This document shows, piece after piece, positions 711-34,532 of a stretch of 39,975 nucleotides of DNA; the first letter of the stretch is position 1, and each line of letters opens with the position of its first letter. This stretch comes from a virus, in the IMG/VR virus record IMGVR_UViG_3300009436_000049, positions 1-39,975 of that record. One strand, 5' to 3'. A program made the translations under genes and the position numbers. The notes beneath the pieces are model-generated. The model worked only from the letters and a program-made list of their open reading frames with translations, ran no database searches and had not been told where the DNA came from.

Positions 711-2876
711 ATGGACTATCAAAAATTTTTAAAAACAAAAGAGAAAAGTCATGTATCAAGTGGATTTGATATAGAAGAAAAAGCATTAAATACTAGCTTA
801 TTTGACTTTCAAAAGTTTACTGTAAAAACAGCCCTTAAAAAAGGTAGGTTTGCTGTATTTGCTGATTGTGGTTTAGGTAAAACACTAATGCAGTTAAGTT
901 GGGCTGAAGAAGTATTTAATTATACAGGGCAAAAGGTTTTATTATTAGCTCCTTTAGCAGTAGTAGAGCAAACAAAAAGAGAGGCAGTAAAGTTTAATAT
1001 TAACTTAGATAGCTTTGATATTACAAACTATGAACAGCTTAAAAATACTGATACTTCTATTTATTCAGGTGTAGTTTTAGATGAATCAAGTATTTTAAAA
1101 GGTAGAGATGGTAAACTATCAAGATATATTATTGATACTTTTAAAATGACTCCTTATAAGTTAGCTTGTACAGCTACACCATCACCAAATGATCACATGG
1201 AGTTAGGTCAGCACGTAGAGTTTTTAGGATTTGATACATATGACAATATGAAGTCTATGTTTTTTGTTCAAGATCAAAAAATAAAAAGTAATGATAAGTG
1301 GAGATTAAGAAAACACGCAAAAGATGATTTTTGGAAATATACTTGTAAATGGAGTATTTCAATTGATAACCCTAAAACATTAGGTTTTAATCATGATGGT
1401 TATGACTTGCCCGAAATAGAATATATTGAGCATATAATACCAGTAGAGAATACTACCAATAATTTATTTGGTGATGTTGCAGTTTCTGCTACTGATTTAC
1501 ATAAAGATTTAAAAAGAAGTCTAGATAAAAGAATTAATAAAACAGTTAATATTATTAATAAAACACCTAATGAACAGTTTATAATTTGGACATTAAAAAA
1601 TGATGAAGCGAAAGAGTTAAACAAAGTTTTAACTGATAGTATTAATGTTCAAGGATCTGATAAACCTGAGGTAAAAGCTAATAATTTAAATGGTTTTGCA
1701 AGAGAAGAGTTTAAAAGATTAATTACTAAAACATCAATAGCATCTTTTGGTATGAATTACCAGCAATGCCATAATATGATATTTACAAGCTATGATTTTA
1801 AGTTTGAAGCGTTTTATCAAGCTGTTAGAAGATGTTATAGATTTGGTCAAACTAAAAAAGTTAAAGTACATTTACTAGTACCCGAATCGCAACTTAATGT
1901 TAGAAAATCAATTTTAGAAAAAGAAAAAAAACATAAAGAAAAACAAAGAGAAATGGCTAAATATTCAAGTGACTCAAATTACAAATCTGAAGTAGAATTA
2001 ATAAACGTAAAAGAAAAAGAAGTAAAAGAAAAAGATTACTGGTTAATTAATGGAGATTGTAATGAAGAAATAAAAAAAATAAAAGATAATAGCGTAGATT
2101 ATTCTTTTTTTTCACCACCTTTTAAAGATTTATATACTTATTCTGATGATCCAAGAGATCTATCTAACGTAACTAGCAGTGATGAGTTTTATAATCATTT
2201 TAGATATTTAGTTCCTGAGTTGTTTAGAACTTTGAAAAGCGGTAGATTATTATCTATGCATATTATGCAAGGCACTACTTCAATAGGTAAAGATGGCTTT
2301 TTATCAATAATAGACTTTAGAGGAGAATTAATCAGATTATTTCAAGAAAATGGATTTATATTTCATGCTGAAAAAATGATAAGAAAGAATCCTCAACTTG
2401 CAGCAGTTAGAACTAAAAATGTACAATTAATGCATGGTCAAACTAAAAGAGATAGTTCAATTAATAGACCAGGACTAGCGGATTATGTTATAACTTTTAG
2501 AAAGCCTGGAATTAATGAAATTAAAATTAAAAATGATATTGATTTTGACTTATGGTGTAAACTAGCAGAGCCAGTATGGATGGATATTAATGAATCTGAT
2601 GTTATTTCTAATTTTAGAAAAGCAAAAGGAAATAAAGATGAAAAACATATGACACCTACTCAATTAAGTGTTATAAGAAATTGCTACTTGTTATGGTCAA
2701 ATGTTGGAGATGTTTGTTTTAGTCCTTTTGGAGGAGTTGGCTCTGAGGGATGCCAAGCTTTAAAAATGAATAGAAAAAGTATAAACATAGAATTAAAAAA
2801 CAGTTATTTTAATATGAATGTACATAATCATAAAGCTTTTGATTTAGAAAAAAACTCAGTATTAACTTTATTCTAA
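711..2876 (+). CDS. SNF2-type helicase fused to DNA methyltransferase
   Basis: This 721-residue protein joins two enzymes. Residues about 30-400 form an SF2/SNF2-like ATPase: Walker A GLGKT (54-58), motif II LDESS (123-127), motif III TATPS (154-158) and motif VI RRCYRFGQ near 370. Residues about 440-710 form a beta-class amino-methyltransferase: catalytic SPPF near 467, then the SAM-binding FGGVG near 672, in that order. SPPF is usual for N4-cytosine or N6-adenine enzymes. Helicase-methylase proteins are known in phages (for example the P1 DarB defence protein, which modifies DNA in cis), so a role in protecting phage DNA from host restriction is plausible. No nuclease motif is seen. It overlaps the MazG-like gene by one base (TAATG), implying translational coupling. 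The order is helicase first, methylase second. Confidence 0.88.
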   Translation: MDYQKFLKTKEKSHVSSGFDIEEKALNTSLFDFQKFTVKTALKKGRFAVFADCGLGKTLMQLSWAEEVFNYTGQKVLLLAPLAVVEQTKREAVKFNINLDSFDITNYEQLKNTDTSIYSGVVLDESSILKGRDGKLSRYIIDTFKMTPYKLACTATPSPNDHMELGQHVEFLGFDTYDNMKSMFFVQDQKIKSNDKWRLRKHAKDDFWKYTCKWSISIDNPKTLGFNHDGYDLPEIEYIEHIIPVENTTNNLFGDVAVSATDLHKDLKRSLDKRINKTVNIINKTPNEQFIIWTLKNDEAKELNKVLTDSINVQGSDKPEVKANNLNGFAREEFKRLITKTSIASFGMNYQQCHNMIFTSYDFKFEAFYQAVRRCYRFGQTKKVKVHLLVPESQLNVRKSILEKEKKHKEKQREMAKYSSDSNYKSEVELINVKEKEVKEKDYWLINGDCNEEIKKIKDNSVDYSFFSPPFKDLYTYSDDPRDLSNVTSSDEFYNHFRYLVPELFRTLKSGRLLSMHIMQGTTSIGKDGFLSIIDFRGELIRLFQENGFIFHAEKMIRKNPQLAAVRTKNVQLMHGQTKRDSSINRPGLADYVITFRKPGINEIKIKNDIDFDLWCKLAEPVWMDINESDVISNFRKAKGNKDEKHMTPTQLSVIRNCYLLWSNVGDVCFSPFGGVGSEGCQALKMNRKSINIELKNSYFNMNVHNHKAFDLEKNSVLTLF

Positions 2877-3157: not shown

Positions 3158-3419
3158 AGATTACTACAGATTTACAGCATTGAGATTCCTAGCTAACTCT
3201 ATTGCATTGTTAGAGGATATTGAGGACTTAAAAGAAACTAAGTTATATTCAAAACAGTTAAAGCATTACGGTAATAAGTTTGTCCATGAGCTGGAAAGAA
3301 TAGCAGTACCTTTAGAGGATGAGTTAGCTAAAAATGGAGAGATTGAAATAGTAGATGAGATTACAAAAGTAGTTAGAGAATTTAATAGGAGTGTAACAGA
3401 TCAATACTTAGTAAAATAA
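3144..3419 (+). CDS. Hypothetical helical protein
   Basis: This 91-residue, charged, mostly alpha-helical protein has no motif I recognise. It begins inside the end of the MazG-like gene (14-base overlap), so it is translated from the same mRNA. It is the last gene before a strong hairpin at 3425-3456. No signal peptide or membrane segment is visible. Confidence 0.6.
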   Translation: MVKDKDYYRFTALRFLANSIALLEDIEDLKETKLYSKQLKHYGNKFVHELERIAVPLEDELAKNGEIEIVDEITKVVREFNRSVTDQYLVK

Positions 3420-3424
3420 CGGTT

Positions 3425-3456
3425 AAAGTAATAACTTTTTTAATTGTTATTACTTT
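3425..3456 (+). terminator. Hairpin terminator after the MazG-like operon
   Basis: Perfect 11-bp inverted repeat: AAAGTAATAAC (3425-3435), a 10-base T-rich loop, GTTATTACTTT (3446-3456). It starts five bases after the preceding stop codon. There is only a short T-rich tail, so termination strength is uncertain. The candidate gene cassette begins about 17 bases further on. Confidence 0.6.
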
Positions 3457-3586
3457 GTGTTAAAAATATACGGTTAGCTGCGCACTAATCTAATAGACTT
3501 CACAGATATACGGGTTTAAGTTAATGAAGTATTCCCCCGTTATTTTTAACGGTTTGGGTATGGAAAGTAAATTAAACGGAATTGAA

Positions 3587-3763
3587 ATGAAAAAATTTGA
3601 AACAAAAGAAGAACTTGTAGAATGGATTGAAACAATGCACCTACAAAATACAAATGGAAGAGAAACGGAAGAAGAAATGTTTAGACTTGGAATAGAAGCT
3701 GCAATAGAAGAACTAACCGAGTTTAATTTATTTTCTATACCCGTTGTTGTGAAATCGTTTTAA
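3587..3763 (+). CDS. Hypothetical protein in candidate cassette
   Basis: A small acidic protein of 58 residues starting MKKFETKEELVEWIE. The frame is open upstream to ATGs at 3524 and 3560. I prefer 3587 because a perfect hairpin (CCGTTA-TTTT-TAACGG, 3537-3552) occupies the upstream part and because MKKF looks like a natural start. The stop TAA (3761-3763) falls in the loop of the hairpin at 3743-3777, so gene end and element are physically joined, as in integron cassettes. No homology recognised. It is not obviously a phage structural or replication gene, which fits cargo. Confidence 0.5.
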   Translation: MKKFETKEELVEWIETMHLQNTNGRETEEEMFRLGIEAAIEELTEFNLFSIPVVVKSF

Positions 3764-3777
3764 TGTTTTACAACAAC
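3743..3777 (+). repeat. attC-like hairpin element, site 1
   Basis: GTTGTTGTGAAA pairs with TTTTACAACAAC (12 bp, one G-T pair) around an 11-base loop, TCGTTTTAATG. The same loop occurs in the sense of the minus-strand genes at 26438-26448, and its CGTTTTAATG core at 25424-25433. Stem sequences differ between the three but stay paired. There is no T tract after it, so it is not an ordinary terminator. An outer stem like those of sites 2 and 3 is not clear here. Confidence 0.55.
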
Positions 3778-3847
3778 CTTGTAAAGAAAGCTTGAGCGTC
3801 GTTTTCTTTTTAGAAAATGTTCTTTTACAATACTGTTATATTTTTAG

Positions 3848-25337: not shown

Positions 25338-25376
25338 AAACTTTGGCTTATAGTGGATAGTTACGAGAGTAACGAG

Positions 25377-25406
25377 GGGTATAACTTGATTGTTATACCC
25401 TTTTTT
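25377..25406 (+). terminator. Rho-independent terminator
   Basis: GGGTATAAC pairs perfectly with GTTATACCC around loop TTGATT, followed by six T (25401-25406). The minus-strand gene insertion begins at the very next base. Confidence 0.9.
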
Positions 25407-25458
25407 GTTGTTAAAAATAAACACATTAAAACGTGTTTTAACATTCTATAATAACAAC
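25407..25458 (-). repeat. attC-like hairpin element, site 3
   Basis: Outer arms GTTGTTA (25407-25413) and TAACAAC (25452-25458), inner arms AAACAC (25419-25424) and GTGTTT (25433-25438), loop ATTAAAAC. The 10-mer CATTAAAACG (25424-25433) is shared with site 2 in the same orientation, and inverted at site 1. ACCTAAC at 25457-25463 matches the integron core RYYYAAC (GTTAGGT on the minus strand). Total length of 52 bp is close to the 53 bp of site 2. Confidence 0.5.
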
Positions 25459-25493
25459 CTAACGGTAGTTTATTATTTCAATGTTAAGGGTAA

Positions 25494-25697
25494 TTATTTC
25501 TTACGTCTGTACCAAATCCAAACATAATTAAAGTTTGCTTTAGCGTCTGTATGCTGTTCCCATCCTTCAGAAGTTAATAATTCGTGTTTATATTCCATAA
25601 CAAGCAACTCACCGCATTTTATTCTTCGGTAATTATATCCTTCTTCTATTTTAACTCCGTAATAAATACCCTTAACAAAATTTAAAAACAATTTCAT
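25494..25697 (-). CDS. Hypothetical protein (cassette gene 3)
   Basis: A 67-residue basic, aromatic-rich protein (many Tyr and Trp; ends NYVWIWYRRKK). The text EMEYKHELLTSEGWEQH-like centre (actual VMEYKHELLTSEGWEQ) and C-terminal Trp/Tyr strand resemble small single-domain proteins often seen as orphan genes. The gene ends 36 bases before element site 3 (25407-25458). No function assigned. Confidence 0.55.
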   Translation of the reverse strand: MKLFLNFVKGIYYGVKIEEGYNYRRIKCGELLVMEYKHELLTSEGWEQHTDAKANFNYVWIWYRRKK

Positions 25698-25735
25698 ACT
25701 TCAACAGATTTTTACATTCAACATTAGCATTAATA

Positions 25736-26383
25736 CTAAGTCCATTGGTTAGCAATAGCTTCCGCCATACCTTTAAAGGTTTTACTTCTTAATGTTCTTA
25801 AATGATCTTTACTTGTTGCTTGTGCTAAACATTCATAAATCCAAGTAGCTTGCCTTTTAGTTTTACCAGTCTTTTTATCTACCCACTCTTTAAAATCTCC
25901 TTTTTCCACTACGTTTGTGTGTTTAAGTTTCGGTAGTCCCTTCAGCCATAAACAAGTGCTTTTACTTGCTTTATCTCCAAAATGATAAGGATGTACTATC
26001 TGGTCAGGTTTTCTTATTTGGCTACTAATTACACTTACAGGGTTTTCAATAGCTATTTTATCTATTGGTGCATCCATTAATTTTCTAACAAAATCAAGTG
26101 CATCTTCTTGGTTTTTCTTCCTAACCTCATTTATTACTTTGTTACCGTTTTCGTCTTTCTTATACATTGCCCAAGCACCAGCCACGCTTAAATATGTACA
26201 GGGTGGGTGAGCTATCATCATATCCCAACCTTTATCTATAACTTCAAATACATCTTGTTGGTAATGCCATTCGGGATGCCCACCACTACAAGGCAATAAA
26301 TCACAACTAAATGCTTCGTGTCCTAAATTTCTAAATTCTTTTGTTATCGCTTGGCTTTCTTCACAAGCTACTAATATTCTCAT
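25736..26383 (-). CDS. C5-cytosine methyltransferase-like protein (cassette gene 2)
   Basis: A 215-residue protein starting RILVACEESQAI, then GHEAFSCDLLPCSGGHPEWH, a SAM-binding-like start. HPPCTYLS (59-66) matches the catalytic Pro-Cys of C5 methylases and IENPV (112-116) the ENV-type motif. This short family is common in phages and islands and is usually annotated as DNA cytosine methylase-like; activity is unproven. It lacks a clear target recognition domain. Its stop codon sits in a small hairpin TTAG-CATTAATA-CTAA (25724-25739), perhaps a decayed version of the elements at its neighbours. A defence or anti-restriction role is plausible. Confidence 0.7.
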   Translation of the reverse strand: MRILVACEESQAITKEFRNLGHEAFSCDLLPCSGGHPEWHYQQDVFEVIDKGWDMMIAHPPCTYLSVAGAWAMYKKDENGNKVINEVRKKNQEDALDFVRKLMDAPIDKIAIENPVSVISSQIRKPDQIVHPYHFGDKASKSTCLWLKGLPKLKHTNVVEKGDFKEWVDKKTGKTKRQATWIYECLAQATSKDHLRTLRSKTFKGMAEAIANQWT

Positions 26384-26417
26384 TCTATATAATTTATTCG
26401 TTAATAATCCGTACTAA

Positions 26418-26470
26418 TGCTAACAATATGTAACAGGCATTAAAACGACCTGTTACACGGAGCGTTAGCA
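26418..26470 (-). repeat. attC-like hairpin element, site 2
   Basis: Nested structure: outer arms TGCTAAC (26418-26424) and GTTAGCA (26464-26470); inner arms TGTAACAGG (26429-26437) and CCTGTTACA (26449-26457), both perfectly paired; unpaired spacers AATA and CGGAGC; loop CATTAAAACGA (26438-26448). The stop TAA of gene 26465-26770 lies inside the right outer arm. This two-stem, two-spacer layout is that of an integron attC, except that the outer core reads GTTAGCA rather than GTTRRRY. Confidence 0.65.
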
Positions 26471-26770
26471 AACATTGATTTCTTCAATATTGTCTATTTT
26501 GTTGCTTCTCTTGTTGTGATAAAAAACAGCCTTAGCCGCTAATTCATTAGGTGCTTCAATATCTTCATGTATAGCAATACCCGACACTTTGAAGTGTATT
26601 CTCCAAGTACGTTTGCTAACAAGTTGTAACGATAAATTTAAAACTAATTGTTGGTACTCATTCAGGCTTATTACGTCTTGTTTAATCCACATATAAAGCA
26701 TCTTATGAGCGTTTTCGTTAGTTTCTTTTTTAAGTCGTTCTGTGTAGTCTTTAAGTTTATATTCGTCCAT
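26465..26770 (-). CDS. Hypothetical protein (cassette gene 1)
   Basis: A 101-residue protein. An N-terminal helical part (DEYKLKDYTERLKKETNENA) is followed by a beta-alpha part (WRIHFKVSGIAIHEDIEAPN, then ELAAKAVFYH). The latter resembles small domains fused to or found near toxin-antitoxin or restriction proteins, but no family is certain. The stop codon is embedded in hairpin site 2. A 16-base sequence almost identical to that site's right half lies 32 bases before its start codon. Confidence 0.55.
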   Translation of the reverse strand: MDEYKLKDYTERLKKETNENAHKMLYMWIKQDVISLNEYQQLVLNLSLQLVSKRTWRIHFKVSGIAIHEDIEAPNELAAKAVFYHNKRSNKIDNIEEINVC

Positions 26771-26801
26771 TTCTTCTGTGTTTATCCGTTTTAAATCAAT
26801 C

Positions 26802-26817
26802 GTTACAAGGAGCGTTA
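26802..26817 (-). repeat. Half-copy of the attC-like element
   Basis: GTTACAAGGAGCGTTA matches 15 of 16 bases of 26452-26467, the inner arm, spacer and outer core of site 2. No pairing partner lies nearby, so it is a solo half-site. It would mark the upstream edge of the insertion. Confidence 0.55.
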
Positions 26818-33759: not shown

Positions 33760-34005
33760 ATGAGTAAACCAACAAATGACTTAGGAGCGTTTTTACACGC
33801 TCAAACTAAGAAAAGCAATGAAGAGTTAGCGGATAGCATTAGAACATCTAAAAAGCTAAGTAATAAACATAATAACGTAGTAATCTTTCAAGAGAAGCGT
33901 AGTGTATGTGGAACGGCTACAAAACTATTACAAGCTATCCAGGACTTTGACAGTACAGCAGAATTAATAATTAAAACAAAAACAGGAACATGGAAACAAA
34001 AATAG
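33760..34005 (+). CDS. Hypothetical protein upstream of ERF
   Basis: An 81-residue protein with LGAFLHAQTKKSNEELADS at the start, basic C-terminus, and 16-base overlap with the ERF gene, which implies a shared role in recombination. No family recognised. Confidence 0.55.
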   Translation: MSKPTNDLGAFLHAQTKKSNEELADSIRTSKKLSNKHNNVVIFQEKRSVCGTATKLLQAIQDFDSTAELIIKTKTGTWKQK

Positions 34006-34532
34006 AACTTTACAAAGCCTTAGCAGCTTTTCAACAGGAAGTACCAACAATACACAAAGGCACTAAAGGGTATGGCTACTCTTATGCTGACTTACCTACA
34101 ATATTAACAACTATTAACCCATTATTAAAAAAACATGGTTTAGGTTTTACACAGCTTTTAAATGGTAACTGTATTAACACTGTAGTTTTTCATTGTGAAA
34201 GTGGAGCTACTATTGAGAGTTCTGTAGATGTACCTGATGATGTAATATTAAAAGGTATGAATAAATTTCAAGTAGTAGGTAGTGCAATTACTTACTATAG
34301 AAGATATTCTTTAAGCTCAATATTAGGTTTAGTTACTGATGTAGATGCTGATGCAACAGGTGCACAAGTAGCTACTAAACCAGTTAAACAGTTAATGACT
34401 GATGATAAGTTTGAGAAAGCTAAAGGATGTAATCTTGATCAGATTAATAAAGTTCTTAGTACTTTTAAGTTTAATAAACCTCAGCAAAGAAAAGAGCTAG
34501 AGGATATTAGAGATAAACTAAATAAAAAGTAA
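33990..34532 (+). CDS. ERF-family single-strand annealing protein
   Basis: A 180-residue protein. LYKALAAFQQEVPTIHKGTK, GYGYSYADLPTILTTINPLL and YRRYSLSSILGLVTDVDADA are the three conserved parts of the ERF family (P22 Erf). It anneals complementary single strands and circularises terminally redundant DNA or joins concatemers. The C-terminal 50 residues are a separate helical domain. Next to an SSB-like protein and RusA, it forms the phage recombination module. Confidence 0.9.
   Translation: METKIELYKALAAFQQEVPTIHKGTKGYGYSYADLPTILTTINPLLKKHGLGFTQLLNGNCINTVVFHCESGATIESSVDVPDDVILKGMNKFQVVGSAITYYRRYSLSSILGLVTDVDADATGAQVATKPVKQLMTDDKFEKAKGCNLDQINKVLSTFKFNKPQQRKELEDIRDKLNKK

Follow-up and report, generated by a model that had tools for sequence, protein, structure and literature searches.

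A phage array of single-gene cassettes with attC-like hairpins and related sites and recombinases in Bacteroidota

The phage genome analysed here carries a gene-cassette array that, with a probability of about 0.78, changes its contents by site-specific recombination at YAA|C through an IntI-like enzyme provided in trans by the host, to the benefit of counter-defence. Exact insertion points, swappable contents, a two-cassette indel and the linkage of each hairpin to the gene on its 3′ side were seen by direct comparison of sequences. The whole stretch of DNA, referred to as the window, is 39,975 nt long; it represents a phage genome and has a terminal repeat of 123 bp, as expected from a circular or permuted assembly. 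Its host is probably a member of the Bacteroidota, judging from the site family and from named phages with matching sites.

Organization of the array

The ORF list confirms the three single minus-strand ORFs that an earlier note on this DNA had placed between a phage terminator and the portal operon. Going by that list only, they are the sole minus-strand genes of the window. Comparison of near-identical phages places the array crossovers at 26814|26815 and 25483|25484. The locus is composed of the following features.

25377–25406, plus strand: phage terminator adjoining the array, from sequence; also present in the empty relatives L341 and L426
25407–25442, minus strand: terminal hairpin with loop CGTTTTAATG, adjoining the docking site; present in every filled close relative
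25439–25486, minus strand: docking hairpin of 48 nt, the fixed 3′ edge of the array, with its YAAC box at 25483–25486; unchanged beside eight different last cassettes in near-identical phages
25484–26814, minus strand: array of three cassettes between two fixed boxes; edges fixed and contents differing in near-identical phages
25494–25697, minus strand: cassette 3 gene, 67 aa (ORF)
25705–25726, minus strand: left half-site before cassette 3, with the degenerate box TAAT at 25723–25726 (sequence)
25736–26383, minus strand: cassette 2 gene, a DNA methyltransferase of 215 aa (phrog_757, E 5.7e-63)
26384–26420, minus strand: leader of cassette 2 with TTAGTACGGATTATTAAC, common to several different genes (flank alignment)
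26418–26470, minus strand: site 2, a full attC-like hairpin at the 5′ end of cassette 2 (fold; 71.7 bits with covariance model R1, site 2 itself being one of the 32 sites from which R1 was built)
26464–26467 and 26421–26424, minus strand: the YAAC and GTTR boxes of site 2
26465–26770, minus strand: cassette 1 gene, 101 aa, family-less (ORF)
26795–26817, minus strand: left half-site before cassette 1 (TAACGCTCCTTGTAACGATTGAT), repeating the left arm of site 2
26814–26817, minus strand: fixed box at the 5′ edge of the array, TAAC after TTAATATTGTA; same edge in L345, L336, L339, L342 and L418

Site 2 folds into two nested stems with unpaired spacers, the attC-type layout that the earlier note had described. 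Its 27-nt inner core recurs exactly in 23 other viral contigs, with unrelated left flanks in nearly all of them. At the fixed 5′ box, the sequences of L345, L336, L339, L342 and L418 part directly after AAC. The half-copy previously noticed at 26802–26817 is real, and the same half-site again precedes the relative of gene 1 in L002.

Two further hairpins of the earlier note are present in altered form. The degenerate element of the middle gene (25724–25739) exists, but it is actually a left half-site just past the stop codon (minus strand TTAATGCTAATGTTGAATGTAAAAATC) with the box TAAT; the L288 relatives have TAAC where the window has this TAAT (25723–25726). The hairpin described as a first site (25407–25458) is a composite, in which the functional piece is the docking hairpin beside the terminal hairpin. 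The stem of the terminal hairpin covaries among relatives (ACAC/GTGT versus AGCC/GGCT). Its outer arms have the wrong polarity for the site family, and R1 does not detect it. A scan of the window finds three short perfect sites, one of which (25370–25410) is the phage terminator, and 20 shuffles gave two in total. Some boxes and hairpins of cassettes 1 and 3 are degenerate, so parts of the array may be immobile.

Genes 1 and 3 have no convincing family match in Pfam or PHROG, and the searches with gene 3 returned zero matches. The first part of the cassette 1 gene is conserved in L002 and in Tenacibaculum phage JQ, and its C-terminal part differs. More generally, members of the gene 1 family (26465–26770, L002:4001–4303 and L033:40322–40588) keep the first 40–50 residues and the upstream leader and differ in the C-terminal part, as if they were chimeric. 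A leader with TAGTACGGATT lies behind many phage sites and half-sites and before unrelated genes, in the window (26384–26420) and in the flanks of other contigs; it could be a promoter or an accessory site.

The window holds a second cassette locus, on the plus strand, at 3417–3838.

3417–3462, plus strand: full attC-like site, whose TAA is the stop codon of the preceding gene (sequence, scan)
3524–3763, plus strand: single cassette gene, 79 aa (ORF), with other genes here in near-identical phages
3771–3838, plus strand: docking-like hairpin, conserved in L521 behind a different cassette with the junction Y|AAC

Cassette turnover in close relatives

Relatives were collected by the portal gene and a neighbouring gene encoding 191 aa. 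The gap between these two genes is 1725 bp in the window. In L345 and L336, with 100% identity in the portal, the gap is 1375 bp and contains three different genes. It is 1089 bp in L339 (portal 97%), with one methyltransferase, and 670 bp in L342 (portal 93%). In L341, L426 and most relatives at 62–80% identity, the gap shrinks to about 280 bp and is empty. The inserted genes of close relatives lie on the minus strand.

All filled loci have in common the edge '...TTAATATTGTATAAC|' and the docking hairpin '|YAAC RTTGAARTAATAAAC...'; their contents vary from AAC onward at one edge and up to AAC at the other. Eight different contents are found at the locus, counting L418, L485, L486 and L487. 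Clean empty sites are provided by L341 and L426. L337 was also considered as one and rejected: the array and half of the terminator are gone and the portal is 100% identical, which probably reflects an imprecise deletion.

Near relatives thus hold none, one or three different cassettes here, in support of the earlier proposal that the phage captures cargo cassettes. The opposite outcome, the same three genes with no size variation, is not what close relatives display, since both contents and lengths vary. By these comparisons the array is real and evidently acts as a cassette array.

Cassette unit, crossover point and polarity

L396 and L398 are identical along stretches of 1634 and 315 nt; what separates them is 648 bp containing two cassettes, with a 3-nt AAC overlap (AAC/GTT) at the junction. 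Homologs of cassette 2 in L288, L291 and L104 align from 26466–26472 to 25724, ending at the two boxes. The indel and these limits of homology therefore define the unit as C-hairpin-leader-gene-YAA. In phage cassettes the crossover lies in the box on the 5′ side of the gene.

The hairpin evidently travels with the gene on its 3′ side. Among protein-level pairs with near-identical right-hand genes, the hairpin is mostly common and the left genes differ; no pair with only the left gene in common exceeds 48% identity. L104 and L284 are an exception, in which the hairpin of one gene is swapped. The protein-level version replaced a first linkage test that compared mostly leaders. Because scans by hairpin sequence favour pairs with a common hairpin, the linkage rests most on L396/L398 and on the fixed docking site.

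The genes on both sides of phage sites run in the same direction as the YAAC-first strand (98 versus 3), whereas chromosomal genes run opposite to it (37 versus 5, among 42 clear cases). Chromosomal cassettes are thus canonical, with gene, then site and a far-box cut, and phage cassettes are inverted relative to them. Both in phages (33:1) and in chromosomes (30:6), wobble pairs favour the YAAC-first strand as the one that folds. Folding as DNA is the better reading of this bias, because the YAAC-first strand is antisense in most chromosomal arrays, and the bias serves as indirect evidence for strand use. Wobble pairs were compared with AC/CA; a GT-versus-TG comparison is uninformative on strand choice.

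In T4-type phages, PeSL regulatory cassettes place a stem-loop and a leader before shuffled phage genes. Homologous or illegitimate recombination at conserved intergenic elements of this kind, with hairpin and leader acting as terminator and promoter, would let phage recombination shuffle the genes. It would explain why hairpin and leader are common to different genes and why one hairpin is swapped in L104/L284, and the window contains an ORF for a putative ERF-type annealing protein (33990–34532). This is the strongest of the alternatives. It is nevertheless unlikely: several junctions have only 3 nt in common, with the same base at all edges, the two sides of the hairpin are non-equivalent, and chromosomal copies adjoin IntI-like recombinases.

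A site family in phages and Bacteroidota

The sites have the consensus YAAC, 5 nt, a stem of about 10 bp, the loop (T)CGTTTTAATG, the returning stem, 3 nt and GTTR. The earlier note had read the core as GTTAGCA in place of the GTTRRRY of integrons; the box consensus is YAAC/GTTR, and conservation is limited to this part. On the far side of the box, AATTNNNNYAAC is the conserved sequence.

BLAST of the hairpin picks up comparable intergenic hairpins in the isolated phages P12002L (Polaribacter) and JQ (Tenacibaculum); each of the two has small single genes arranged in rows, and several methyltransferases. A pattern scan of viral contigs, which allowed 24–38 nt, yields at least 121 matches; among the matches listed, all but one are 30 or 31 nt. 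The inner stem covaries strongly (0.401 versus 0.168 in shuffles). R1 detects sites in 12 of 80 evenly drawn Bacteroidia genomes and in none of 79 genomes from one control class. G001, one of the Bacteroidia genomes, was the centre of the draw, and its sites were known beforehand. A chance origin of the sites is ruled out by the exact cores, the covariation, the control genomes and the window shuffles. A GTTACANGGAGCGTTA pattern was discarded, its frequency in viral contigs not being above our chance expectation.

Bacteroidota chromosomes also carry long versions of the site, of about 123–148 nt, with the same boxes. Arm pairing in the short sites shows no conserved bulge, and a conserved extrahelical base is absent from the L stem. 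Beyond YAAC and GTTR, the outer arms are no more complementary than shuffled arms; outer-arm complementarity was dropped as evidence for sites, and its lack fits shuffling. Single-gene cassettes have elements of this kind at their borders both in phages and in the chromosomes of Bacteroidota, at odds with the possibility, raised beforehand, that no bacterial genome would have them at cassette borders.

Two good R1 matches occur in a Methylophaga genome bin (G105:C8:114406–114472 and G105:C9:10866–10931). These matches may mean that the site family extends to other phyla, or that the bin is contaminated.

Candidate recombinases

A search of the window with the tyrosine recombinase profile PF00589 gives zero matches, in line with the earlier note's remark that an integrase is absent. 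Since the window encodes no such enzyme, it is probably the host's.

No protein in 18 Bacteroidota genomes, chosen for the presence of sites, passes the IntI cut-off (TIGR02249). IntI-like recombinases of Bacteroidota reach 168–212 of 265 bits; their matches are split into two stretches, with profile positions of about 180–240 missing. Such a recombinase and a site lie within 25 kb on one contig in about ten of the 18 genomes by our count, with one or two expected by chance on a rough estimate. G018:C35 displays an integron-like arrangement of a recombinase with divergent cassettes, and in G007:C14 the recombinase is followed by a long array. Integron-like layouts are also found in G047:C6, G011:C3, G008, G009, G013 and G069. 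Some of the recombinases in these layouts are truncated.

The catalytic residues R, K, H, R, H and Y are invariant in the array recombinases. The closest solved structures to an array recombinase (model pLDDT 86.6) are XerA and the Vibrio integron integrase. The spacing from Arg I to HxLRH is 96–97 residues, versus 138–139 in IntI, and the extra domain that IntI has between these motifs is missing. A tree was built in which IntI was sampled from gammaproteobacteria only and Xer from Bacteroidota only; there the array recombinases fall with IntI and apart from Xer with support of 100/99, and their own monophyly is weakly supported (84/64). The family is also present in many genomes in which R1 detects no site. 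Three site-bearing phage contigs carry IntI-like relatives of their own (L133:4183–5016, L101:6918–7712 and L123:1989–2588). The candidate for the host enzyme used by the window's phage is of this type, related to IntI and lacking its extra domain, and this IntI-adjacent group would recombine the sites.

A small zinc-finger-like protein of about 120 aa, with weak Pfam matches only, is encoded just upstream of and divergent from the array recombinase (L317:9097–9480, L489:9313–9690 and L491:9172–9522, all minus strand). It is possibly a partner of the recombinase.

The host XerC/XerD could instead act on double-stranded dif-like boxes, in the manner of pdif modules, with the hairpin being incidental. 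Half-sites with the first two boxes only are indeed frequent, and AATTNNNNYAAC on the far side of the box recalls a Xer arm. An incidental hairpin is difficult to reconcile with the inner-stem covariation and the strand bias, and the recombinases near arrays form a separate group, distinct from the hosts' Xer in the tree. A Xer-type mechanism is accordingly rated lower still than shuffling by phage recombination.

Cargo

The right-hand neighbours of phage sites, a non-redundant set of 99 genes, include 20 with matches to N6/N4 and 6 with matches to C5 DNA methyltransferases; two Mom matches and one Acb2/Tad1 hairpin match occur in the same set. PHROGs adds five matches to phrog_757, which may overlap the methyltransferase matches. 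Possible phage core genes among the sampled cargo comprise two portal and two NinG genes. The composition is consistent with a putative counter-defence role.

Outside the cassettes, a 721-aa ORF of the window (711–2876) joins a SNF2/DEAD-type helicase to an N6/N4 methyltransferase domain.

Proposed mechanism

Returning to site-specific recombination as the preferred explanation, each cassette would consist of one gene behind an attC-like DNA hairpin, or its left half, and would end in ...YAA. Cassettes would enter and leave by site-specific recombination within YAA|C, docking before the fixed phage hairpin. The YAAC-first strand would be folded and cut as single-stranded DNA, like the bottom strand of attC. 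The enzyme would act in trans from the host; the likeliest candidate is a tyrosine recombinase of Bacteroidota from the group beside IntI, with no extra domain. The benefit would be a changing set of anti-restriction and other counter-defence genes. Phages thus appear to run a mirror-image integron system, probably on a borrowed bacterial enzyme.

Alternatively, the hairpins might be transcription terminators or RNA elements of the ordinary kind, and the genes might form a hypervariable spot that has nothing to do with them. Although the hairpins lie near gene ends, and attC sites are thought to be weak terminators (PMC9892861), a U-run is absent, boxes and loop are conserved, an Rfam search of the hairpin returns no match, the strand bias persists where the folded strand is antisense, and the cassette indels are exact, all of which makes this explanation very improbable. 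Misjoining of metagenomic contigs at repeated hairpins is hardly credible: most relatives are metagenomic and some hairpin cores identical, but the isolated phages P12002L and JQ carry the same kind of array, and the key junctions, with just 3 nt in common, are too short to mislead an assembler.

On the site-specific reading, what phages exchange are precise modules of one gene each, often a DNA methyltransferase with a possible role against restriction, and the site family involved is spread over many phages and Bacteroidota. A wider reading, tentative and falling just short of an even chance in our judgement, is that Bacteroidota and their phages have a common system with bulge-less hairpins and IntI-adjacent recombinases that never had the extra domain, I2. 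If true, an early stage of integron evolution is preserved, and phage cassettes constitute a separate inverted pool.

Comparison with known systems

Phage-borne cassettes are not new, because Qi et al. (2023) reported CALINs in phages, including Polaribacter phage P12002L, and, of two P12002L sites assayed in E. coli, IntI1 recombined one with attI1 (PMC9892861). P12002L has sites that belong to one family with site 2, and the gene context suggests which of its sites were the two assayed. Like the array described here, the phage CALINs have attC-like sites between single genes, methyltransferase cargo and no integrase. That study does not describe inverted polarity, a docking site, cassette exchange among near-identical phages, how large the family is, or a host recombinase without the extra domain. 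As for bacteria, IntegronFinder 2.0 lists one complete integron in Bacteroidetes proper, in Salinibacter, and Bacteroidota are not among the 11 attC models of Ghaly (2021). We found no direct description in the literature of Bacteroidota arrays of this kind.

Like chromosomal integrons, the system has cassettes of one gene each, R and L boxes in its hairpin sites, a crossover within AAC/GTT and, in Bacteroidota chromosomes, a recombinase at the array edge. It differs in the site box (GTTR versus GTTRRRY), in short sites without a conserved extrahelical base, in phage cassettes with the site at the 5′ end of the gene, and in array recombinases that score below the IntI cut-off and lack the extra domain. 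In contrast to a complete integron, intI is absent from the same element (PF00589). The earlier integron-cassette reading is thus borne out for the cassette organization and not for a canonical attC, the site being attC-like. As GTTRRRY, the extrahelical bases, the site position and the IntI cut-off all fail to match, the system is an integron variant, not a member.

PeSL cassettes have the same order of stem-loop and leader before shuffled phage genes; array crossovers, unlike theirs, fall within 3 nt of one box, next to a fixed docking site. XerC/XerD and pdif modules likewise use tyrosine recombinase boxes, carry genes as modules and have phages that borrow host enzymes, as CTXphi borrows host Xer enzymes (PMC4792948). 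They differ from the present sites, which have a covarying hairpin and a strand bias, and from the array recombinases, which group with IntI and not with the host Xer.

What is new comprises the inverted phage cassettes, the docking sites, turnover between near-identical phages, the methyltransferase-rich cargo and a recombinase group beside IntI without the extra domain. Escudero et al. (2016) imagined a Xer-like ancestor of IntI that lacked the I2 domain, as well as a possible viral origin of integrons (PMC4792948). A recombinase group and a site family with these properties make that question testable.
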